Assembly: GCF_000310185.1 (NCBI RefSeq)
Contig: NZ_AMXD01000030.1
Span: forward strand, 1-33,192
Source: Thauera aminoaromatica S2
GTDB lineage: Bacteria > Pseudomonadota > Gammaproteobacteria > Burkholderiales > Rhodocyclaceae
Reading direction: 5' to 3'
DNA: 33,192 nt
Numbering within the stretch: position 1 is the first letter of the stretch; every line of letters begins with the position of its first letter. Positions 1 to 12,319 of the stretch are shown here, in pieces. Below the pieces are notes generated by a model that did not search any database, had not been told where the DNA came from, and was given only the letters and a program-made list of their open reading frames with translations. The position numbers were made by a program, and so were the translations under genes.

Positions 1-689
1 GCCCGGGCTGGGTCGCGGGTGTCGCCGGCCTCGCCGCGCCTGCTGCGCTCGCGGGCTTCGCCGCGCCCGGCGGCACGGTGATCGCACTCGCCGGGCGGGG
101 CGGCTGGCTGGGGCTGTTCCGCCTTGGCGACAGCCTGCGCGCGGATGCGCCGATGATCACCCGTCGCCTGGCGGCCGAGGGTGCGGCGCTCGGCCTGCTT
201 TCCGGCGACGCGCAGCCGGTGGTGGATGCGGTCGCCGCCCGGCTGGGAATCCACGACGCGCGCGGTGGCCTGGATCCGCAGGGCAAGCAACAGGCGATCG
301 TCGACATGCAGCGCGACGACAGGGCGGTCGTGGCGATGATCGGCGACGGCGTGAACGACGCCCCGGTACTCGCCCAGGCCCACGTTTCGGTGGCGATGGG
401 CGGCGGTACCGACCTCGCGCGCAACCAGGCCGACATCGTGCTGCTCAACGAGCGCTTCGTCAGCCTTGCCGACGGGATCGTGCTTGCGCGCAGGACCCTG
501 CGCATCATCCGGCAGAACCTGTGGTGGTCGTTCGCCTACAATTTCACCTCGGTGCCGCTCGCCATGGCGGGGCTGGTGACCCCGTGGATGGCCGGCATCG
601 GCATGGCGGCGAGTTCCTTGCTCGTCGTGCTCAACGCGATGCGCCTGCAGCGCGCCACGCGCACCGAGCGCGCAGGCGCGGAGAACTGA
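1..689 (+). CDS. ccoI: Copper-translocating P1B-type ATPase CcoI, C-terminal part
   Basis: The gene is cut by the left window edge; the frame is open from base 3 and ends at TGA 687-689. The visible part covers the end of the cytoplasmic P domain, with the hinge motif GDGVNDAP and the following GGGTDLARNQADIVLL, and then the last two membrane helices. The final helix carries the MAASSLLVVLNAMRL pattern typical of P1B copper pumps. CcoI/FixI-type ATPases export copper to the periplasm for the CuB centre of cbb3 oxidase. Placement one base before ccoS and upstream of ccoNOQP supports CcoI over a general CopA detoxification pump. The CPC motif and metal-binding N-terminus lie outside the window, so the subtype rests on context. 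Confidence 0.9.
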   Translation, partial: PGWVAGVAGLAAPAALAGFAAPGGTVIALAGRGGWLGLFRLGDSLRADAPMITRRLAAEGAALGLLSGDAQPVVDAVAARLGIHDARGGLDPQGKQQAIVDMQRDDRAVVAMIGDGVNDAPVLAQAHVSVAMGGGTDLARNQADIVLLNERFVSLADGIVLARRTLRIIRQNLWWSFAYNFTSVPLAMAGLVTPWMAGIGMAASSLLVVLNAMRLQRATRTERAGAEN

Positions 690-690
690 G

Positions 691-945
691 ATGGAAAGCC
701 TCTACTTGCTGATTCCGCTGTCGGTCGTGCTGGTCTTCGTCATCGGGGTGTTGTTCTGGTGGTCGCTGCGCAGCGGCCAGTACGACGACCTCGAGGGTCC
801 GGCCTACCGGCTGCTGATGGACGACCGCGAACAACTCCCGGGGGACGGGCAGGAGCGGGATGCAGACCCGTCCGGCGAGGTGGCTGCGAATGGGGTTTCC
901 GATCGCCGTACCGGCTCCGCGGGTGAGCAATCGAGGTTTCGTTGA
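691..945 (+). CDS. ccoS: cbb3-type cytochrome oxidase assembly protein CcoS
   Basis: This is a small protein of 84 residues with one N-terminal membrane helix (about residues 5-25) followed by the family signature GQYDDLEGPAYRLLMDD. CcoS is needed for cofactor insertion (heme b and CuB) into CcoN; its exact chemistry is unknown. The ATG follows the ccoI stop after one base, so the two are translationally coupled. The protein is longer than many CcoS proteins (about 45-70 residues): after the signature it has a hydrophilic, probably disordered tail rich in G, D, R and S. The stop codon 943-945 lies inside a perfect Fnr box (942-955). Confidence 0.92.
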   Translation: MESLYLLIPLSVVLVFVIGVLFWWSLRSGQYDDLEGPAYRLLMDDREQLPGDGQERDADPSGEVAANGVSDRRTGSAGEQSRFR

Positions 946-955
946 CCTGCGTCAA
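942..955 (+). promoter_or_regulatory. Fnr box overlapping the ccoS stop codon
   Basis: The sequence TTGACCTGCGTCAA is a perfect 5-4-5 palindrome matching the Fnr/Anr consensus. Its centre is 948.5. A -10-like hexamer GAAAAT lies at 977-982 (4 of 6 matches to TATAAT), with its centre 31 bp downstream. That is the same spacing as at the ccoN promoter and fits a class II Fnr-activated promoter starting at about 989-990. The next intrinsic terminator is only about 95 bp further on. Confidence 0.8.
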
Positions 956-988
956 CTGCTGTCTCATGTAACGGTGGAAAATATCGGC

Positions 989-1084
989 GTTGCGACCGAT
1001 CGCCTTTCATGACGATGGCGAGCGGTCCGGGGTTTATGTCTCTCTGTTGGGGTTGGGGGTGCGTGCAGACGCACCCTTTTTTTT
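989..1084 (+). ncRNA. Candidate Fnr-activated small RNA between ccoS and ccoN
   Basis: The predicted transcript runs from the start site implied by the Fnr box at 942-955 to the T-tract at 1077-1084, about 96 nt. The 5' part can fold into an 11-bp hairpin (GACCGATCGCC 994-1004 with GGCGAGCGGTC 1017-1027, one A/G mismatch, 12-nt loop). A largely unpaired stretch of about 29 nt follows (1028-1056), including TCTCTCT, which is complementary to purine-rich ribosome binding sites. The 3' end is a perfect 8-bp GC-rich terminator stem followed by eight T. This layout matches regulatory sRNAs; FnrS of E. coli and AniS of Neisseria are known Fnr-dependent sRNAs, but no sequence homology to them is claimed. 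Alternative: merely the ccoS 3' end plus an unused Fnr site. Confidence 0.55.
1057..1084 (+). terminator. Strong intrinsic terminator
   Basis: The stem GGGTGCGT (1057-1064) pairs perfectly with ACGCACCC (1069-1076) around the loop GCAG and is followed directly by eight T (1077-1084). This is the clearest Rho-independent terminator in the window. It ends the ccoI-ccoS transcript and the proposed sRNA and separates both from ccoN. Confidence 0.93.
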
Positions 1085-1242
1085 GCCTCTCGAAAGGCAT
1101 GCCGAAACCGCTGGATGCCTTGCAGGCATTGGCTTCCAGCCCGCTCGCACGATTGCGCGCCGCGCTCGTTGCTGGGTTTTGGGTTTGTTTTTGGACTAAC
1201 TCCAATTTCCCCTTCCTTGGCCCCGTCTGCTGCAATACAATA
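1085..1242. other. Intergenic region between terminator and ccoN promoter
   Basis: No coding frame looks real here. Small inverted repeats are visible (GCCT/AGGC near 1085-1098 and ATGCC/GGCAT near 1118-1132), followed by a T/G-rich stretch at about 1171-1192. No consensus binding site other than the downstream Fnr box was recognised. Confidence 0.4.
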
Positions 1243-1283
1243 TTGACTTGTGTCAAATTGCGTATGTGGTCGTGGCGTATTCT
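1243..1283 (+). promoter_or_regulatory. Fnr-dependent ccoN promoter
   Basis: The Fnr box TTGACTTGTGTCAA (1243-1256, centre 1249.5) is a perfect palindrome. A -10 hexamer TATTCT lies at 1278-1283, giving a predicted start at about 1290 and a box at about -41.5, the class II activator position. The leader to the ccoN ATG is then about 70 nt. This fits low-oxygen induction of cbb3 oxidase by the fnr product encoded at 10047-10793. Confidence 0.85.
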
Positions 1284-1360
1284 CGCCCGAGTGGTTCGCC
1301 GCGGAAGTCTGCTGCGGCGCGACGCAAGCAGGGGTTTTCAAAAACAAAGAGGTGATCCAG

Positions 1361-2791
1361 ATGCAATCGCAAGCGACTTATAACTATAAAGTCGTGCGCC
1401 AGTTCGCCATCATGACGGTGGTGTGGGGCATCGTGGGCATGCTCGTCGGCGTGATCGCCGCGGCACAGCTCGTGTGGCCCCAGTTGAACGTGCACGAATT
1501 CCTGCATTTCGGCAGGCTCCGTCCGCTGCACACCAACGCGGTGATCTTCGCGTTCGGTGGCTGCGCGTTGTTCGCGACGTCGTACTACGTCGTCCAGCGC
1601 ACTTGTCACACCAGGCTGTTCGCGCCGGGCCTGGCCGCGTTCACCTTCTGGGGCTGGCAGCTGGTCATCCTGCTTGCCGCGATCACCCTGCCGCTGGGTT
1701 ACACCACCTCCAAGGAATACGCCGAGCTCGAATGGCCGATCGACATCCTGATCGCGATCGTGTGGGTGTCCTATGCCATCGTGTTCTTCGGCACCATTGC
1801 CAGGCGCAAGGTCTCGCACATCTATGTGGCGAACTGGTTCTTCGGCGGCTTCATCCTCACCGTCGCGCTGCTCCACATCGTGAACAGCGCCGCGATCCCC
1901 GTCTCGCTGACCAGCATGAAGTCCTATTCGGCCTATGCCGGCGTGCAGGACGCGATGATCCAGTGGTGGTACGGGCACAACGCGGTGGGCTTCTTCCTGA
2001 CTGCGGGCTTCCTCGGCATGATGTACTACTTCGTGCCCAAGCAGGCCGACCGTCCGGTGTATTCCTATCGCCTGTCGGTGGTGCACTTCTGGGCGCTGAT
2101 CTTCACCTACATGTGGGCGGGTCCGCACCACCTGCACTACACCGCGCTGCCCGACTGGACCCAGTCCGTGGGCATGGTGTTCTCGCTGATCCTGCTGGCG
2201 CCGTCCTGGGGCGGCATGATCAACGGCGTGCTGACCCTGTCGGGCGCCTGGCACAAGCTGCGCACCGACCCGATCCTGAAGTTCCTCATCACCTCGCTGT
2301 CCTTCTACGGCATGTCGACCTTCGAAGGCCCGATGATGTCGATCAAGACGGTCAACGCGCTGTCTCACTACACCGACTGGACCGTCGGCCACGTGCACTC
2401 CGGCGCGCTCGGCTGGGTGGCGATGATCTCCATCGGCTCGGTGTACTTCCTGCTGCCGCGCCTCTACGGCAAGAGCGAGATGTACAGCGTCAAGCTGATC
2501 AACGCCCACTTCTGGATCGCCACCATCGGCATCGTGCTGTACATCGCCTCGATGTGGATCTCTGGTGTGATGCAGGGCCTGATGTGGCGCGCGACCAACC
2601 CGGACGGCACGCTGACCTACTCCTTCGTCGAGTCGGTCAAGGCCAGCTACCCGTTCTGGACGATCCGCTTCATCGGCGGCGCGATGTTCCTCGGCGGCAT
2701 GCTGATCATGTTCTACAACATGGTGAAGACGATCGCCGGCCAGAAGGCCTATGACGCCCCGGTGCTCGCGCCCGCGGCTGCCCACGCCTGA
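1361..2791 (+). CDS. ccoN: cbb3-type cytochrome c oxidase subunit I CcoN
   Basis: This is the catalytic subunit of the high-affinity terminal oxidase, reducing O2 to water in the inner membrane while pumping protons. The 476 residues form about 12 membrane helices. Ligands are visible: His57 and His346 for low-spin heme b, His344 for heme b3, and His206, His256 and His257 for CuB. Tyr250 is at the place of the cross-linked tyrosine of cbb3 enzymes, and Glu323 in FEGPMMS is conserved. ATG 1361 was chosen because AGAGGTGAT sits 6-7 bases upstream and the protein starts like other CcoN; upstream in-frame ATGs would place the start inside the promoter. It is first in the ccoNOQP operon. Confidence 0.98.
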
Positions 2792-2806
2792 TCGGAGAAC
2801 AACAAC

Positions 2807-3442
2807 ATGGCTCAATCGAAACACGAAAAGATCGAACGCAACGTATTCCTCATGATCGTGCTCACGCTGATGACCGTCAGCGTGGGTGGTCTGGTGGAGA
2901 TCGTGCCGCTGTTCTTCCAGCACTCGACCACCACCGCGATCGACCACAAGGGCAATGCGCTCGACGTCAAGCCGTACGATCCGGTCCGTCTCGTGGGGCG
3001 CGACATCTACGTCCGCGAAGGCTGCTACAACTGCCACTCGCAGATGATCCGTCCGTTCCGCGCCGAGACCGAGCGCTACGGCCACTATTCGGTCGCCGGC
3101 GAGTACATCTACGACCACCCGTTCCAGTGGGGCTCCAAACGCACCGGTCCGGACCTCGCCCGCGTCGGTGGCCGCTACTCCGACGAATGGCAGCGTGTGC
3201 ACCTGCTCAATCCTCGCGACGTCGTGCCCGAGTCGAACATGCCAGCCTTCCCCTGGCTCGATCGCCCGGTCAGGGCGGCGGACATCCAGGACCGCATGCG
3301 CGCGCTCAACAAGGTCGGTCTGCACAAGTACAGCGACGAGGAGATCGCCGCCGCGCCGGCCGCGCTCGAGGGCAAGACCGAACTCGACGCCGTCGTGGCC
3401 TACCTCCAGGGGTTGGGCACCGCGATTTCGCACTTCAGGTAA
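2807..3442 (+). CDS. ccoO: cbb3-type cytochrome c oxidase subunit II CcoO (monoheme c)
   Basis: This 211-residue protein has one N-terminal membrane anchor (about residues 13-36) and a periplasmic cytochrome c domain. The heme c site is Cys73-Tyr-Asn-Cys76-His77. CcoO passes electrons to the heme b/heme b3-CuB centre of CcoN. The conserved sequence ...[14 protein letters not shown] and a Met-rich SNMPAFPW segment (likely axial Met) are present. It follows ccoN after 15 bases with a GGAGAA ribosome binding site. Length is normal for the family. Confidence 0.97.
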
Positions 3443-3457
3443 GGAAGCACTCGCGCC

Positions 3458-3646
3458 GTGGATATCAACGATTTCCGTAGCCTGATCACCGTGCTTGGGC
3501 TGCTCTGCTTCCTGGGTATCTGTGCCTGGGCGTACAGCAAGCAGGCGAAGGCCGGTTTCGACGAGGCGGCGCGTCTGCCCCTGAGCGACGACGACCTACC
3601 GGCCCCGCGCGGCCGGCAAGACCAAGAGGGAAAAACAAATGGCTGA
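3458..3646 (+). CDS. ccoQ: cbb3-type cytochrome oxidase subunit CcoQ
   Basis: This is a 62-residue protein with one membrane helix (about residues 8-27) and a short charged cytoplasmic tail; the AWAYSKQAKAGFDEAARLPL segment is typical of CcoQ/FixQ. It stabilises the oxidase complex and has no cofactor. The start is GTG 3458, with AAGGAAG about 10 bases upstream. Its last 8 bases overlap the beginning of ccoP, indicating translational coupling. Confidence 0.92.
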   Translation: MDINDFRSLITVLGLLCFLGICAWAYSKQAKAGFDEAARLPLSDDDLPAPRGRQDQEGKTNG

Positions 3647-4529
3647 CTTCATCAGCGGTTTCTGGAACATGTATGTGATGGTCCTCGTGGCCCTCTCCAT
3701 CCTGTTCTGTGTGTTCGTGCTGGCGTCGAACATGACCAAGCGCGAGAAAGGGCCGGTGCAATTGCATGGCCATGTGTGGGATGAAACGCTTGCGGAGTAC
3801 AACAACCCCCTGCCGCGGTGGTGGATGTACCTGTTCTGGATCACCATCGTGTTCGCGGTGGTTTACCTGGCGATCTATCCCGGCTTTGGCCGCAGCAACC
3901 AGAGCCGCGGTCAGTGGGCGCAGTACGATGCGGAGATGCAGGCCGCCCAGGAGCGTTTCGGTCCCGTGTTCGCCAAGTATCGCGAGATGGACGTGATGGC
4001 GGTCGCCGCCGATCCCGAAGCCAACGCGATGGGCAAGCGCCTGTTCCTGACCTACTGCCAGCAGTGCCACGGCGCGGCGGCGCAGGGTGCGAAGAGCTTC
4101 CCCAACCTGACCGACAGCGAGTGGCTGTGGGGCGGTGCGCCGGAAAACATCAAGGAGACCATCACGAACGGGCGTAACGGCGTGATGCCTCCGTTCGGTC
4201 CCGCGCTCGGCGCCGACGGTGTCAAGGATGTCGCCAACTACGTGCGTTCGATGAACGGCCTCGCCCACGACTCCGTGCGCGCGCAGCGCGGCAAGGAAGC
4301 CTTCGAGTCCAACTGCGTGGCTTGCCACGGTGCGGATGCCAAGGGCAACCCGATGCTCGGCGCGCCCAACCTGACCGACAACCGCTGGCTGTACGGCTCG
4401 TCCGAGGCGGTGATCATCGAGACCGTCACCAACGGCCGCAACAACAAGATGCCCGCCTTCGGTGCCTTCCTCGGCGAGGACAAGGTGCACCTGCTCGCCG
4501 CCTACGTGCTGAGCCTGAGCAAGAAGTAA
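3639..4529 (+). CDS. ccoP: cbb3-type cytochrome c oxidase subunit III CcoP (diheme c)
   Basis: The 296-residue diheme cytochrome c receives electrons from soluble cytochromes. Two N-terminal membrane helices (about 10-30 and 61-81) are followed by two cytochrome c domains with heme sites Cys140-x2-Cys143-His144 and Cys226-x2-Cys229-His230. The two domains are internally repeated: PNLTDSEWLWGG and PNLTDNRWLYGS, and NGRNGVMPPFG and NGRNNKMPAFG. Having two N-terminal helices is usual for betaproteobacterial CcoP. It is the last gene of the structural operon and is followed by a stem-loop at 4563-4589. Confidence 0.97.
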   Translation: MADFISGFWNMYVMVLVALSILFCVFVLASNMTKREKGPVQLHGHVWDETLAEYNNPLPRWWMYLFWITIVFAVVYLAIYPGFGRSNQSRGQWAQYDAEMQAAQERFGPVFAKYREMDVMAVAADPEANAMGKRLFLTYCQQCHGAAAQGAKSFPNLTDSEWLWGGAPENIKETITNGRNGVMPPFGPALGADGVKDVANYVRSMNGLAHDSVRAQRGKEAFESNCVACHGADAKGNPMLGAPNLTDNRWLYGSSEAVIIETVTNGRNNKMPAFGAFLGEDKVHLLAAYVLSLSKK

Positions 4530-4562
4530 GCGTCACCCGCAGTAGCTGCAGCAGCATCGCAT

Positions 4563-4589
4563 CCCCGGGAGGAAGGGGCCCTCCCGGGG
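4563..4589 (+). terminator. Stem-loop after ccoP
   Basis: CCCCGGGAG (4563-4571) pairs perfectly with CTCCCGGGG (4581-4589) around a 9-base loop. Only a weak T-tract follows (TTCTCGAT), so it may be a partial terminator or an mRNA 3'-end protector that lets ccoNOQP be expressed more strongly than the downstream ccoG-ccoH genes. Confidence 0.55.
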
Positions 4590-4632
4590 TTCTCGATAAC
4601 AACAAGAACAAGAATTCATCGGTAACAAGGCC

Positions 4633-6066
4633 ATGAAAAGCGCATCCCCCGAGCCGCAGAAGGCGGCAAGACCCTCCAACCCCGAGTCCTCCCAGGACAC
4701 GCTCTACGCGGCACGCAAGAAGCTCTACGTGCGCTCCGTCACCGGCCTGTTCGCCAACTGGCGGTGGGCGTTGGTGTGGATCACCCAGATCTTGTTCTAC
4801 GGTCTGCCCTGGCTGAGCTGGAACGACCGCCAGGCCGTGCTTTTCCATCTGACCGAACGCAAGTTCTACATCTTCGGCTGGGTCTTCTGGCCGCAGGACG
4901 TGTTCTTTCTCGCGATCCTGTTGATCATCTCGGCCTACGCCCTGTTCTTCTTCACCGCGATCGCGGGCCGCCTGTGGTGCGGATATGCCTGCCCGCAGAC
5001 GGTGTATACCGAGATCTTCATGTGGATCGAGGAGAAGATCGAGGGCGACCATACCCGCCGCCAGAAGCTCGACCGCGCGCCGATGAGCTCCGGCAAGGCG
5101 TTGCGCCGCGCCGTCAAGTTCCTCGTCTGGGGCATCGTCGCGCTGTGGACCGGCTTCACCTTCGTGGCCTATTTCTCCCCGCTCGACGAATTGCTGGCCT
5201 CCTTCAACGGCCTCACCTTCGGGCCCTGGGAAACGTTCTGGATCCTGTTCTACGCCGGCTTCACCTACCTCTTCGCCGGCGTGCTGCGCGAGCAGGTGTG
5301 CAAGTACATGTGCCCGTACGCGCGCTTCCAGGCGGTGATGTTCGACCCCGACACCCTGGTGATCACCTACGACGAGGCACGTGGCGAGCCGCGCGGAACG
5401 CGCAAGAAGGGCATCGATCCGCGCTCCGTGTCCAAGGGCGACTGCATCGACTGCGGCATCTGCGTGCAGGTTTGCCCGACCGGGATCGACATCCGCGATG
5501 GCCTGCAGTACGAATGCATCGGCTGTGCCGCCTGCATCGACGCCTGCGACCAGGTCATGGACAAGATGAACTACCCGCGCGGCCTGATCCGCTACTCGAC
5601 CGAGAACGCGATGAAGCGCAATTGGGGCTCCAAGGAGATCCTCGCGCACGTGTTCCGGCCGCGCACGCTGATCTACGGCACCATCCTGGCCGCGATCTGC
5701 GCTGCCTTCGTGTGGGGCCTGGCTGCGCGCGAACCGCTGCGCGTCGACGTGCTGCGCGACCGCTCCTCGCTCGGACAGGAGATCGAGGGTGGCCTGATCG
5801 AGAACGTGTACCAGCTCCAGGTCATGAACATGACCGAGTCGCCGCGTGCGTTCAGCATCGGCGTCTCCGGCCTGAACGGAATCCGCATCAAGGGTCCGCA
5901 GCGGGTCGAGGTCGCGCCGGCCGGCGTGCAGTCGGTCACCGTACAGGTGCACGTCCCCTACGACGAAGGCAAGCCGGGGGCCAACACGATTTTCTTCGAC
6001 GTCGCTGCGGAGGATGATCCCGCCTTGACGCTCAAGGAAGAGTCCACTTTCCTGGTACCGCGCTGA
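4633..6066 (+). CDS. ccoG: cbb3 oxidase assembly ferredoxin-like protein CcoG (FixG/RdxA)
   Basis: This 477-residue membrane iron-sulfur protein is thought to reduce copper during cbb3 assembly. About four to five membrane helices surround two [4Fe-4S] ferredoxin motifs: Cys271/274/277/281 and Cys295/298/301/305. Further conserved cysteine motifs GYACPQ (Cys116, Cys120) and CKYMCP (Cys223, Cys227) are present. The C-terminal about 120 residues form an Ig-like periplasmic FixG domain. The ATG at 4633 is preceded by a weak AAGG. The stop is separated by one base from ccoH, so they form an operon. Confidence 0.96.
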   Translation: MKSASPEPQKAARPSNPESSQDTLYAARKKLYVRSVTGLFANWRWALVWITQILFYGLPWLSWNDRQAVLFHLTERKFYIFGWVFWPQDVFFLAILLIISAYALFFFTAIAGRLWCGYACPQTVYTEIFMWIEEKIEGDHTRRQKLDRAPMSSGKALRRAVKFLVWGIVALWTGFTFVAYFSPLDELLASFNGLTFGPWETFWILFYAGFTYLFAGVLREQVCKYMCPYARFQAVMFDPDTLVITYDEARGEPRGTRKKGIDPRSVSKGDCIDCGICVQVCPTGIDIRDGLQYECIGCAACIDACDQVMDKMNYPRGLIRYSTENAMKRNWGSKEILAHVFRPRTLIYGTILAAICAAFVWGLAAREPLRVDVLRDRSSLGQEIEGGLIENVYQLQVMNMTESPRAFSIGVSGLNGIRIKGPQRVEVAPAGVQSVTVQVHVPYDEGKPGANTIFFDVAAEDDPALTLKEESTFLVPR

Positions 6067-6833: not shown

Positions 6834-7277
6834 TCAGCGGTAGACCAGAACCGGCGTCTTGCTGTGGGTCAGCACCTTTTGCGTCTCGGAGCCGAGCAGC
6901 AGGCCTGCGATGCCGCGACGGCCGTGCGAGGCCATGAAGATGAGGTCGCAGCCATGGCGGTCGGCGGCGTCGATGATCGCCTCGTAGGGCACCTCATTGA
7001 CCGCGGTGTCGCTGTCGCAGGCCACGCCCGCCGCTTCCGCCGCACCGCGCGCCTTTGAAAGGATCGCCTCGGCTTCGGATGCAGCCGATTTCGCGAACTG
7101 CTCGGGCGTGGTCGGATCGATCAGCGCGCCCTCGCCGTAGATCGGCATCGGGAAGTCCGGCTGCGAATAGAAGAAGGTGATGCGCGCGCCGGTCTCCTTC
7201 GCGAAGGAGACGGCACGGGCGACCGTGCTGTCCGAGAGTGCCGAGCCGTCGGTCGGTACCAGGATGTGCTTGAACAT
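6834..7277 (-). CDS. Universal stress protein UspA family
   Basis: This single-domain Usp protein of 147 residues starts MFKHILVPTDGSALS and ends with the nucleotide-binding segment ASHGRRGIAGLLLGS and the strand TPVLVYR. The binding motif of ATP-type Usps is G-x2-G-x9-G-S/T; here the first glycine is alanine, a common variant. A GGGAG ribosome binding site lies 8 bases before the ATG. It is transcribed divergently from the nuclease gene at 7413 across a perfect Fnr box. In Pseudomonas, Usp proteins under the Fnr homologue Anr support anaerobic survival, which fits this arrangement. Confidence 0.93.
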   Translation of the reverse strand: MFKHILVPTDGSALSDSTVARAVSFAKETGARITFFYSQPDFPMPIYGEGALIDPTTPEQFAKSAASEAEAILSKARGAAEAAGVACDSDTAVNEVPYEAIIDAADRHGCDLIFMASHGRRGIAGLLLGSETQKVLTHSKTPVLVYR

Positions 7278-7309: not shown

Positions 7310-7353
7310 ATTATAGCGAGCGGATGGGGTCCGCCATGATTGATCATGATCAA
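7310..7353 (-). promoter_or_regulatory. Fnr box and consensus -10 for uspA
   Basis: TTGATCATGATCAA (7340-7353) is a perfect match to the Fnr consensus and fully palindromic. On the minus strand a perfect TATAAT lies at 7315-7310, 34 bp from the box centre, giving a start near 7303 and a box at about -42 to -44. On the plus strand only a poor -10 (CACAGT 7376-7381) is at the matching distance for the nuclease gene, so uspA is the stronger target. Confidence 0.85.
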
Positions 7354-7412: not shown

Positions 7413-8822
7413 ATGATGCTCACCTTCCTTGGCGCTGCGGGCGAGGTCACCGGCTCCTGCCTGCGGGTCGATCACGAGCGCGGTGCATTTCTGGTGGATT
7501 GCGGCCTTTTCCAGGGCGGGCGCGAAGCCGACCGCAAGAACCGCGACGCCCTCGATTTCGAGCTGCGCGACATCGATTTCGTGCTCCTCACCCACGCCCA
7601 TCTCGATCACTCCGGCCTGCTGCCGCGCCTCGTGGCACTGGGATATCGAGGGCGCATCTTCGCCACCACGGCCACTGTCGATCTGCTCGGCGTGATGTTG
7701 ATGGATTCCGCCCATATCCAGGAGAAGGAGGCCGAGTGGGCGCTGCGCGACACGCGCTCGCGCAAGATGGCACGCCGGGCGGAGGTGGCCCCGCTCTACA
7801 CCGTGGAGCAGGCGCGTACCAGTCTGGGCCGTTTCGTCCCCACCGACTACGACGACTGGATCGAGCCCGGCCCGGGCGTGCGCTGCCGCTTCCGTGACGC
7901 CGGGCACATCCTCGGTTCGGCGATCCTCGAGATCGACGTCGGCGAGCGCGGCCACACCCGCCGGCTGGTCGCCTCGGGCGACATTGGCCAGCCGATGCGC
8001 CCGGTGCTGCGGGACCCGGTGCGGATCGCCCGGGCCGACTACCTGTGCGTCGAGTCGACCTACGGCAACCGCGCCCACCGCTCCTTCGCCGCCACCTGCG
8101 ACGAGCTCGCGCTCGCCTTGCGGCGCACGCTCGAGGTCGATGGCGGCAACGTGATCATCCCGGCGTTCGCGGTCGGGCGTACCCAGGAAGTGCTGTTCGT
8201 GCTCGCCGACCTGGTGCGCGCCGGACGCATCGCCCGGCTCGACGTCGTGGTCGACTCGCCGATGGCCTCTGCGGTCACCGCGCTCACCGTGCGCCACACC
8301 GCCCTCTGGGACGATGAGACGCGTGCGCTCTACGCCTGGGCCGAGGCCAACTCGGGACGCTTCCGTGTGCGGTTCGTGCAGGACGTCGAGGAATCGAAGG
8401 CGCTCAATGCGGTGCCGGGCGGGCTGGTCGTGATCTCGGCAAGCGGCATGTGCGATGCCGGTCGGATCAAGCACCACCTGCGCCACAACCTCGGCCGGCG
8501 CGAGTGCGCAGTGGTCATCGCAGGCTTCCAGGCTGCCGGCACGCTCGGCCGCCGGCTGGTCGACGGTGCGCACCAGGTCACCCTGTTCGGCGAACGTATC
8601 CCGGTACGTGCGCGCATCCATACCATCGGCGGGCTCTCCGCCCACGCCGACCAGCCCGCACTCCTCGACTGGCTGCGCGGCTTCGGCGAAGCGCCGCGGC
8701 GCACCTTCGTGGCGCACGGCGAGCCGGCCGCCTCCGCCGCCTTCGTCGAGGCGGTCGAGCGCGAACTGGGCTGGAGCAGGGTCGAGGCGGCGCGGCCCGG
8801 CGTGCCGGTCGTGCTCGAGTGA
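7413..8822 (+). CDS. Metallo-beta-lactamase-fold RNase/beta-CASP family protein
   Basis: This 469-residue protein has an N-terminal metallo-beta-lactamase domain with the metal motif HAHLDH, then DAGHILGSA and SGDIG, an inserted beta-CASP domain (CVESTYGNRAHR to VDSPMA and SASGMCDAGR) and a C-terminal RMMBL domain with GGLSAHADQ. This is the architecture of bacterial CPSF-like RNA-processing exo/endonucleases, acting in the cytoplasm with two zinc ions. Start 7413 was chosen because GAGG lies 6 bases upstream; ATG 7416 is equally possible and GTG 7380 less likely. It shares an Fnr-box intergenic region with uspA, suggesting a link between low oxygen and RNA turnover. The RNA target is unknown. 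Confidence 0.92.
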   Translation: MMLTFLGAAGEVTGSCLRVDHERGAFLVDCGLFQGGREADRKNRDALDFELRDIDFVLLTHAHLDHSGLLPRLVALGYRGRIFATTATVDLLGVMLMDSAHIQEKEAEWALRDTRSRKMARRAEVAPLYTVEQARTSLGRFVPTDYDDWIEPGPGVRCRFRDAGHILGSAILEIDVGERGHTRRLVASGDIGQPMRPVLRDPVRIARADYLCVESTYGNRAHRSFAATCDELALALRRTLEVDGGNVIIPAFAVGRTQEVLFVLADLVRAGRIARLDVVVDSPMASAVTALTVRHTALWDDETRALYAWAEANSGRFRVRFVQDVEESKALNAVPGGLVVISASGMCDAGRIKHHLRHNLGRRECAVVIAGFQAAGTLGRRLVDGAHQVTLFGERIPVRARIHTIGGLSAHADQPALLDWLRGFGEAPRRTFVAHGEPAASAAFVEAVERELGWSRVEAARPGVPVVLE

Positions 8823-10046: not shown

Positions 10047-10793
10047 TCAGCGCGCGCCGTGCTGGTGCTGGATCAGGCGCTTGAGGCCGGCGAGGTCGAG
10101 CAGGTGTACGTGCTTCTGCTGCACCGCGATCAGCCCGTCCTCCTGGAAGCGCGAGAAGGCGCGCGACACCGTCTCGAGCTTGAGTCCGAGGTAGGAGCCG
10201 ATCTCCTCGCGCGTCATGCGCAGGTTGAACTCGCTCGGCGAGAAACCGCGCGCCGTGAAGCGCTGCGACATGTTCAGCAGGAAGGCGGCCAGGCGCTCTT
10301 CGGCGCGCATCGAGCCGAGCAGCATCATCACGCCGTGATCGCGCACGATCTCGCGGCTCATGACCTTGTGGAACTGAAGTTGCAAGCCCTCGATCTCATG
10401 CGACATCTGCTCGAGCTTGTCGTAGGCGATCACGCACACCTCGCTGTCCTCGAGCGCCACCGCGTTGCAGCTGTGGGCCTCGGTGCTGATGCCGTCGAGA
10501 CCGAGGATCTCGCCGGTCATCTGGAAGCCGGTCACCTGTTCGCGACCGTCCTCGAGCAGCACGTCGGTCTTGAACGAGCCCGCGCGGATCGCGTAGATCG
10601 CCTCGAAAGAGTCACCGGCGCGGTAGAGATTGTGCTGGCGCTTGACCTTGCGGCGCGCGCCCACCAGTTCGTCGAGCCGGCTCAGCTCACGATCGGACAT
10701 TCCGAAGGGGAGGCACAACTCGACGAGGTTGCACTGCGAACAGGCCGATTTGAGCCCATCCACGGTAATTGGCACGCTAGCCCTCATCTGCAC
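10047..10793 (-). CDS. fnr: Oxygen-sensing transcriptional regulator Fnr/Anr
   Basis: This 248-residue regulator carries the four [4Fe-4S] ligands Cys18, Cys21, Cys27 (C-x2-C-x5-C) and Cys109. A sensor barrel and dimer helix are followed by the DNA-recognition segment LKLETVSRAF with the E-x-x-S-R residues that read TTGAT half-sites. Without oxygen the cluster-bound dimer activates or represses promoters with TTGAC/T-N4-G/ATCAA boxes, four perfect copies of which lie in this window. The gene is divergent from hemN. The start at 10793 gives the usual N-terminal length; Met3 is a possible alternative. The Fnr box at 10860 is closer in geometry to hemN than to fnr, so autoregulation is not evident. 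Confidence 0.95.
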   Translation of the reverse strand: MQMRASVPITVDGLKSACSQCNLVELCLPFGMSDRELSRLDELVGARRKVKRQHNLYRAGDSFEAIYAIRAGSFKTDVLLEDGREQVTGFQMTGEILGLDGISTEAHSCNAVALEDSEVCVIAYDKLEQMSHEIEGLQLQFHKVMSREIVRDHGVMMLLGSMRAEERLAAFLLNMSQRFTARGFSPSEFNLRMTREEIGSYLGLKLETVSRAFSRFQEDGLIAVQQKHVHLLDLAGLKRLIQHQHGAR

Positions 10794-10859: not shown

Positions 10860-10901
10860 TTGACCCAAGTCAACCAACATTACGGAGGCTTCTGCCATTG
10901 T
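10860..10901 (+). promoter_or_regulatory. Fnr-dependent hemN promoter
   Basis: The Fnr box TTGACCCAAGTCAA (10860-10873, centre 10866.5) is a perfect palindrome. A weak -10 (CATTGT 10896-10901) is at the class II distance, giving a start near 10908 and a leader of about 20 nt to the hemN ATG. This position argues against the in-frame ATG at 10835, which would put the box inside the gene. Confidence 0.8.
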
Positions 10902-10927: not shown

Positions 10928-12319
10928 ATGAAAAGCCAGACCGACCTCATCTTCGACCCGCAACTGATCCGCAAATTCGACATCAACGGGCCGCGCTACA
11001 CGTCCTATCCCACGGCGGACCGCTTCGTCGAAGCCTTCAATGCAGAGGCGCTGCGGGCCTGGCTGGCCAAGCGGGCGGTGGGCGGCGTAAGCAAACCGCT
11101 CTCATTATACTTCCACATCCCCTTCTGCAACACGATCTGCTACTACTGCGCCTGCAACAAGATCATTACCAAGGATCATGGGCGCTCGGCCAAGTACCTG
11201 AAATATCTCGCGAAAGAAATCGAGATGCAGGCCGCTTGCCTGGAGGGGAGCCGCCAGGTCACCCAGCTCCACCTCGGCGGGGGCACGCCGACCTTTTTGT
11301 CGCACGACGAGATGCGCGAGCTCATGGCGGCGGTGCGCGAGCACTTCACGCTGGTGCCCAACGGCGAATACTCGATCGAGGTCGACCCGCGCAAGGTCGA
11401 TTTCGACACCGTGAAGCTGCTCGCCGAGCTCGGCTTCAACCGCATGAGCGTGGGCGTGCAGGATTTCGCCGAGGACGTGCAGCAGGCGGTCAATCGTATC
11501 CAGAGCTTCGACGAGACCAAGCTGGTCATCGACGCCGCGCGCGCCAACGGCTTCAAATCGGTGAGCATGGACCTGATCTACGGCCTGCCCCGGCAGAACC
11601 CGACCAGCTTCGACCGCACGCTCGACCAGGTGCTGGAGATCTCGCCCGACCGCATCTCGCTGTACAGCTACGCTCACCTGCCGGGCCTGTTCAAGCCGCA
11701 GCGCCGCATCAACAGCGGCGACATGCCCACGGCCGACACCAAGCTCGCGCTACTGCAGCTCGGCATCCGCCGGCTCACCGAGGCGGGCTACGTGTATATC
11801 GGCATGGACCACTTCGCCAAGCCCGACGACGAGCTCACCATCGCCCAGCGCCAGGGCCGCCTGCACCGCAACTTCCAGGGCTATTCCACCCACGCCGAAT
11901 GCGACCTGCTCGCCTTCGGGGTGTCGGCGATCGGCAAGATCGGTCCGGTGTACGCGCAGAACGTGAAGACGCTCGACGAGTACTACGACGCGCTCGACCG
12001 CGACGAGCTGCCGGTGCTGCGCGGCATCGAGCTCACCGCCGACGACCTGCTGCGGCGCGCGATCATCCAGGCGCTGATGTGCCACTTCGAGCTCTCGATG
12101 CAGTCGATCGAGATCGCCTACCTGGTCAACTTCCGCGAGTACTTCGCCGAGGAACTCGCCGATCTGCAGGAAATGGAGAAGGCCGGGCTGGTCAAGATCG
12201 ACGGCGACTGGATCAGCGTGCAGCCCGGCGGCCGCCTGCTGGTGCGCGGCATCGCGATGGTGTTCGACCGCTACCTGCGCGCCGACCGCGAGCGCCAGCG
12301 CTACTCGCGGGTGATCTGA
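10928..12319 (+). CDS. hemN: Oxygen-independent coproporphyrinogen III dehydrogenase HemN
   Basis: This is a radical SAM enzyme of 463 residues that oxidatively decarboxylates coproporphyrinogen III to protoporphyrinogen IX without oxygen, in heme synthesis. The cluster motif Cys67-x3-Cys71-x2-Cys74, with the extra Cys76 of true HemN, is present, as are LHLGGGTPTF (SAM site) and the N-terminal GPRYTSYPTADRF that is specific to HemN rather than HemW. ATG 10928 was chosen by homology to the usual N-terminus and by the upstream Fnr promoter. Heme made under low oxygen would feed the b and c hemes of the cbb3 oxidase nearby. Confidence 0.97.
   Translation: MKSQTDLIFDPQLIRKFDINGPRYTSYPTADRFVEAFNAEALRAWLAKRAVGGVSKPLSLYFHIPFCNTICYYCACNKIITKDHGRSAKYLKYLAKEIEMQAACLEGSRQVTQLHLGGGTPTFLSHDEMRELMAAVREHFTLVPNGEYSIEVDPRKVDFDTVKLLAELGFNRMSVGVQDFAEDVQQAVNRIQSFDETKLVIDAARANGFKSVSMDLIYGLPRQNPTSFDRTLDQVLEISPDRISLYSYAHLPGLFKPQRRINSGDMPTADTKLALLQLGIRRLTEAGYVYIGMDHFAKPDDELTIAQRQGRLHRNFQGYSTHAECDLLAFGVSAIGKIGPVYAQNVKTLDEYYDALDRDELPVLRGIELTADDLLRRAIIQALMCHFELSMQSIEIAYLVNFREYFAEELADLQEMEKAGLVKIDGDWISVQPGGRLLVRGIAMVFDRYLRADRERQRYSRVI

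Follow-up and report, generated by a model that had tools for sequence, protein, structure and literature searches.

What occupies the gap between ccoS and ccoN, two genes of the cbb3 oxidase locus, in Thauera aminoaromatica S2? The stretch of DNA analyzed here, referred to as the window, comprises 33,192 nucleotides (nt; positions 1 to 33,192 of contig NZ_AMXD01000030.1, forward strand), and the original prediction for this gap was a low-oxygen small RNA (sRNA), activated by Fnr and ended by an intrinsic terminator. Comparison with sequences beyond the window supports that proposal: it is quite likely, in our judgement, that the ccoS-ccoN gap encodes an FNR-activated sRNA acting in trans. Its predicted parts are as follows.

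942-955, plus strand: FNR-type box TTGACCTGCGTCAA, a perfect palindrome (TTGAC-N4-GTCAA) centered 40.5 base pairs (bp) upstream of the predicted start
977-982, plus strand: -10 element GAAAAT, 21 nt 3' of the box and 31 bp from it, center to center
989-1084, plus strand: predicted sRNA, 96 nt, with its start inferred from the box and the -10 element
994-1027, plus strand: 5' hairpin, its sequence differing among species and its structure kept
1039-1054, plus strand: conserved core TCTCTCTGTTGGGGTT, where pairing is predicted; a weak local hairpin is predicted to involve part of it
1055-1084, plus strand: intrinsic terminator, with stem GGGTGCGT/ACGCACCC at 1055-1078, a GCAG loop, and eight T (T8) to 1084

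The Fnr box, originally described as perfect, is indeed a perfect palindrome, and boxes of the form TTGAY-N4-RTCAA occur four times in the 33-kb window versus not at all in 100 shuffles of it. The description needs one correction, as the box is the TTGAC/GTCAA variant, unlike the TTGAT-N4-ATCAA form quoted for FNR sites in a passage of PMC9765128; among 134 loci of the family that have a box, TTGAC/GTCAA is the most frequent form (53). The box overlaps the stop codon of ccoS (943-945). The positions of box and -10 element together place the predicted start near 989, and the claim that their 31-bp spacing is shared with the promoter of ccoN holds, the latter combining a box at 1243-1256 with TATTCT at 1278-1283.

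Promoter conservation was assessed at 139 distinct loci (from L001-L179, with duplicates removed), of which 136 had at least 150 nt of upstream sequence. At 133 of these 136, the 150 nt ahead of the core contain an exact FNR box, compared with 7 of 4,068 control windows from the same loci; with 200 nt, the count is 134. With the -10 element of each relative taken as the best hexamer within 17-27 nt of the box, the spacing is 21 or 22 nt in 133 of 134 loci, and the commonest hexamer is CATACT (79/134). A second, partially overlapping set of 44 loci (30 genomes and 14 further loci found by covariance model) has an exact box within 180 nt in 41 cases, the exceptions being L201, L258 and L265. What these loci present is a box and a -10 element at class II spacing ahead of a short predicted transcription unit, the arrangement by which an FNR-activated sRNA is recognized. 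Within the window, a scan of bases 1-6000 revealed no sigma-70-type promoter, and terminator-like sites are no more frequent there than expected by chance (3 found versus 3.6 expected); it is therefore the comparison between genomes that brings out the importance of these elements.

The terminator was originally called strong, with a perfect stem and eight T, and both features are as described. Its stem covaries among relatives: in an alignment of 38 tails, divergent ones included (A2), all five tested pairs changed on both sides, with a covariation score reached by none of 500 shuffles (the lower G-C pairs were left out because the gap in the G-run was inconsistently placed). Stem pairing is found in 95.2% of cells, versus at most 58.5% for slid pairings, and the loop varies. 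The full 96-nt RNA is predicted to fold into the 5' hairpin and the terminator stem (-38.4 kcal/mol, z -2.2), and predicted RNA lengths in relatives have a median of 102 nt (n=169). The 5' hairpin folds as first proposed, with the qualification that it is kept only as structure: compared with dinucleotide shuffles, the 5' region shows greater stability in a set of 157 relatives (mean z -2.12, with 126 of them below -1), and a 67-nt form (L197) still has the hairpin, which seems to be lacking in L267, a very short form beginning at the core with no space for it.

Between these elements, and outside both main hairpins, lies the core UCUCUCUGUUGGGGUU, which is nearly invariant among relatives, although at L061-L179 this follows by construction, these loci having been picked by an exact 26-mer. 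The TCTCTCT stretch singled out in the original prediction is part of a longer conserved element, consisting of UCUCUCUGUUGGGGUU plus the stem. Stem-loops kept as structure and a core kept as sequence would correspond to the usual division of an sRNA into stabilizing and pairing parts.

The element is widespread in the family of Thauera, Azoarcus and Zoogloea. R1, a covariance model built from 50 sequences of the 3' part, matches 231 of 297 family genomes, representing 54 of 68 genera; among the 241 better assemblies, 191 have a match. In a nucleotide search of the 297 genomes, the matches listed fall on the 3' half of the RNA, with identities of ∼84-96% when the genome of origin and one close relative are excluded. 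Oriented loci share a pattern in which the block TCTCTCTGTTGGGGTTGGGGGTGCG is followed by a loop that varies, then by the closing stem and a run of 7 to 10 T. Among the named carriers are Azoarcus, Aromatoleum, Thauera, Zoogloea and Denitromonas, as well as Uliginosibacterium, Sulfuritalea, Sulfurisoma and Hydrogenophilus records. A lack of conservation in related ccoS-ccoN gaps had been set in advance as grounds for abandoning the sRNA; box, core, terminator and 5' structure are all conserved, at the frequencies given above.

At 30 loci selected by ccoN alone, the block lies within the fetched stretch in 26 and is absent by that test at L033, L041, L051 and L056; R1 finds a slightly altered copy in the genome of L041 (G234), and in those of L051 (G036) and L056 (G133) the RNA sits on another contig than the best ccoN. 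Some genomes of the 14 genera without an R1 match (G004, G052) are also without ccoN. Across 399 genomes sampled from the order, the only matches of at least 60 bits outside the family are in G467 and G486, both with an FNR box; matches of 20-30 bits, most of which cover just the terminator part, were disregarded, and one of 39 bits without a box (G363) was judged a chance match. As a separate observation, two or three R1 matches per genome occur in G244, G073, G296, G102, G260, G028 and G081, and the RNA may therefore be duplicated in these.

From these features we infer the following mechanism, in which the gap would hold an sRNA gene with a class II FNR-type promoter of its own. At low oxygen, FNR would bind at 942-955, and RNA polymerase would make an RNA of about 96 nt ending at the T8 terminator. 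The 5' hairpin would protect or position this RNA, the terminator and U-tail would suit Hfq, and the core UCUCUCUGUUGGGGUU would pair in trans with mRNAs, most likely at ribosome binding sites of the AGAGA type, the presumed sign of the regulation being repression of the bound mRNAs. Masking of the ribosome binding site appears the most likely mode of action, although we would give it only about an even chance.

Whether the RNA is independent of the oxidase genes around it can be judged from its neighborhood, which includes the following features.

691-945, plus strand: ccoS (cbb3 oxidase assembly), the upstream neighbor; TIGR00847 above cut-off
1243-1256, plus strand: FNR box of the ccoN promoter, separate from the sRNA box; -10 element TATTCT at 1278-1283
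1361-2791, plus strand: ccoN (cbb3 oxidase subunit I), the downstream neighbor; TIGR00780 above cut-off
10047-10793, minus strand: fnr, the likely activator, 9 kb from the sRNA gene; NF008365 at 245.7 bits (cut-off 228)

In a catalogue of at least 119 stretches carrying the 26-mer (80 with titles), cco genes adjoin the RNA at all 119 loci listed. The RNA lies between ccoS/ccoI and ccoN in 88 of them; in 14 (nine of these titled Zoogloea) it follows ccoS/ccoI and has no ccoN nearer than 1.5 kb; 10 and 5 are ended by a contig edge on one side, and two (L074, L171) have ccoN and no ccoS/ccoI directly upstream. The nearest ccoN DNA in this list belongs to a Thauera record (L093, 95.6% identity).

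Given this setting, the element could be taken for the bare terminator of the ccoI-ccoS operon, with an FNR box that serves another purpose or is a remnant: it is located 110 nt behind ccoS, and ccoS or ccoI stands upstream in 112 of the 119 loci. A bare terminator would not, however, be expected to have its most conserved bases outside a stem that itself varies with compensation, nor a box and a -10 element held at fixed spacing, nor a structured 5' part, and we consider this explanation improbable. We give similarly little credence to a leader or attenuator of ccoN, in which transcription from 989 would sometimes read through into that gene. While ccoN does follow in the same orientation in 95 of the 119 loci, its own FNR box lies downstream of the terminator (at 1243 in the window; 108 of 131 loci have a second box on the 3' side of the sRNA), the 14 loci mentioned above keep the RNA with no ccoN close by, and G036 and G133 have the two on different contigs. 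Since ccoN has an FNR box of its own, we read the RNA as neither a ccoN leader nor merely a ccoIS terminator; as predicted from these signals, it is a transcription unit in its own right, independent of ccoN.

Alternatively, the RNA might bind a partner other than mRNA, either a protein or the RNA of RNase P. An apparent conserved target, CAACAGAGAGCAGACCGCCGATG, turned out to be RNase P RNA. The RNase P RNA motif CAACAGAGAG and a part of the core, CUCUCUGUUG, are perfect complements of each other over 10 nt, the target-like matches score above the threshold of RF00010 at six of six loci (L440-L445), and in G112 a variant core, AUUCUCUGUUG, matches a variant motif, CAACAGAGAAU, over 11 nt. This motif is constrained in any case, however; the GGGGUU half of the core finds nothing there to pair with, the other variant genome (G042) gives just a G-U pair, and two genomes do not amount to a covariation test, all of which makes such a partner very improbable. 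That the RNA is the mRNA of a very short protein is scarcely credible, since the triplet directly ahead of the core reads ATG or TTG at many loci but TAG or AAG at many others, none of the codon positions in the core varies, and, as originally stated, no plausible open reading frame (ORF) fits inside the RNA, all eight possible ATG, GTG or TTG starts within 989-1084 reading beyond the terminator.

Returning to an FNR-activated sRNA that acts in trans, several points weigh against it. The RNA is predicted from DNA alone, and R1 has no match in 66 of the 297 family genomes. There is no nearby box at L098, L171, L258 and L265, nor at L201, itself a doubtful locus. The RNA of L112, one of six folded whole, is no more stable than its shuffles (z -0.55). 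Predicted folds leave little of the core's GGGG unpaired (probability of being unpaired 0.11-0.16 at its first three Gs), and the seed may therefore open only upon binding of Hfq or of a target. The search for targets adds further points of this kind: near-perfect complements of the core show no excess (11 sites versus 15 for the reversed pattern); CAACAGAG before an ATG is matched less often than the same seed shuffled in its first half (135 versus 166 matches); and folE2, a candidate matched in four genomes, was rejected, as none of 18 other sRNA-bearing genomes has CAACAGAG in the 45 nt upstream of it (this test covered those 18 and nine sRNA-lacking genomes, with the start codon chosen by script).

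Two loci without a box also differ in another respect: at L171 and L258, the core directly follows the apparent (by eye) stop codon of ompW, and the RNA there may thus be a 3' untranslated region product of that gene.

Which mRNAs might then be bound? A single long perfect target was rejected, as in 13 genomes of the genus an exact match to the 13-nt complement of the core is present once per genome, and only at the sRNA locus (confirmed by box and T-run in 12; the thirteenth is the window). The 11 near-perfect sites, which match 12 of 13 letters, lie outside that locus in the same 13 genomes, and six of them fall within 24 nt of an ATG opening a frame of at least 80 amino acids. These six frames encode a cupredoxin-like protein (in the genome of the window, at G000:C1:130406), an amidohydrolase, a sigma-54 activator, MogA, IspH and PaaN. 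In cco loci, comparable start-codon rates are 3/45 for CAGAGAG, 17/105 for AGAGAG and 12/34 for GAGAGAG, with 11% for random positions; the binomial probability of six in 11 is 0.007 at a rate of 18% and 0.10 at 32%, in a comparison that is small, post hoc and based on rates from cco loci rather than whole genomes, which also counts against the proposed pairing. The 135 matches of CAACAGAG before an ATG, found in 16 genomes, compare with 57 for its backwards reading. As an individual observation, a 14-nt perfect complement of the core lies at ∼1498-1512 of locus L331 (G010), at the ribosome site of a DsrC-like gene (PF04358), and is the longest noticed among the ORFs compared.

A more far-reaching proposal is that the RNA serves as the family's general low-oxygen riboregulator, through which active FNR would shut off oxygen-dependent catabolism at the ribosome binding site. 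Its targets would be oxygenases, the phenylacetate pathway, and their transporters and activators, and it would act after transcription to switch the breakdown of aromatic compounds from the aerobic to the denitrifying mode. Hints in this direction come from PaaN, IspH and the sigma-54 activator among the six start-codon sites, and from oxygenase-related ORFs, which make up 6 of 72 candidates versus 0 of 41 controls (Fisher 0.06): a phenol hydroxylase, a catechol 2,3-dioxygenase-like protein, a styrene monooxygenase, two Fer2/FAD reductases, and one further ORF that by its domain is no more than a flavin reductase. This comparison is uneven, with candidates from 22 genomes and controls from 16; the ORFs are a part of the matches, chosen according to spacing and to which base follows the seed, and controls were judged by eye, with no domain scans. 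When restricted to the same 16 genomes, it shrinks to 2/52 versus 0/41 (Fisher 0.31), and for this reason we have lowered our estimate of the proposal from unlikely to distinctly unlikely.

Bacteria well known for denitrification and for degrading aromatic pollutants in wastewater and soil belong to this family. If real, the RNA would add a post-transcriptional layer to the oxygen response of these bacteria. It would also provide a new family to annotate, with the model R1 at hand and a named promoter, and would allow a connection of the cbb3 oxidase locus with the control of aerobic catabolism to be tested.

We class the predicted RNA as a new family of a known kind, the FNR-activated sRNA. 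With Rfam 15 at gathering score, there is no match in the window, nor at the sRNA loci L171, L258, L267 and L196; membership in SorY, AniS, ftsZ-DE or SorX was rejected, the matches to all four being sub-threshold. The best of these matches is SorY (RF02651, singlet oxygen resistance RNA Y), known from Rhodobacter, which has CUGUUGG before the terminator in common with the present RNA but scores 23.6 bits against a gathering score of 111, and of which it is not a member. The original prediction had likened the RNA to FnrS and AniS without visible homology. AniS, which is FNR-dependent in Neisseria, resembles it in the layout of its alignment (RF02274), with a 5' hairpin, a pyrimidine stretch, a G/U-rich stretch and a terminator with U8; membership, on the other hand, does not hold, as the RNA scores 14.3 bits where the gathering score is 50, and the AniS consensus is without GUUGGGGUUGG. 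FnrS, the FNR-activated sRNA of E. coli and relatives that represses aerobic metabolism, is similar in its FNR promoter, length of ∼100 nt, intrinsic terminator, and the repression proposed under anoxia, and differs in host class and locus. No match named FnrS is among those of the window up to E = 10, the presence of an FnrS model in Rfam being unchecked. At most, the present RNA works like FnrS.

Other comparisons concern the host class and the locus. S17 of Bordetella pertussis is described, in passages of PMC11722255, as conserved as far as Aromatoleum and as directly repressing one target through a 5' untranslated region. Like S17/RF02278 (Betaproteobacteria toxic sRNA), the present RNA is a betaproteobacterial sRNA with a short invariant core ahead of its terminator (PMC11722255). 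The two are not identical, as the genome of the window has two RF02278 copies elsewhere, with the core TCTCCTCCACCCTCCTCC; the only copies above the Rfam cut-off of 50 bits are at G000:C106:2226-2290 (L180) and C86:13150-13216 (L181). In Rhodobacterales, a terminator-like RNA motif at the cbb3 locus, HRC-8-4, is mentioned in a passage of PMC8632094 and parallels the present RNA in place but not in sequence, the conserved bases of the latter preceding the stem. In the open-licence literature, the RNA is not described among the matches listed (titles, beginnings of abstracts, and passages, including those of PMC11722255, PMC6456745, PMC9765128 and PMC8632094).

Exact FNR-type boxes also occur elsewhere in the window. 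One, TTGATCATGATCAA at 7340-7353, lies between a gene at 6834-7277 (minus strand), which is universal-stress-protein-like, and one at 7413-8819 (plus strand) for an RNase-like beta-CASP metallo-hydrolase, with the models for both under their cut-offs. Another, TTGACCCAAGTCAA at 10860-10873, lies between fnr on the minus strand and hemN (TIGR00538) on the plus strand, the latter starting near 10929 by eye, which places fnr beside an anaerobic heme gene.
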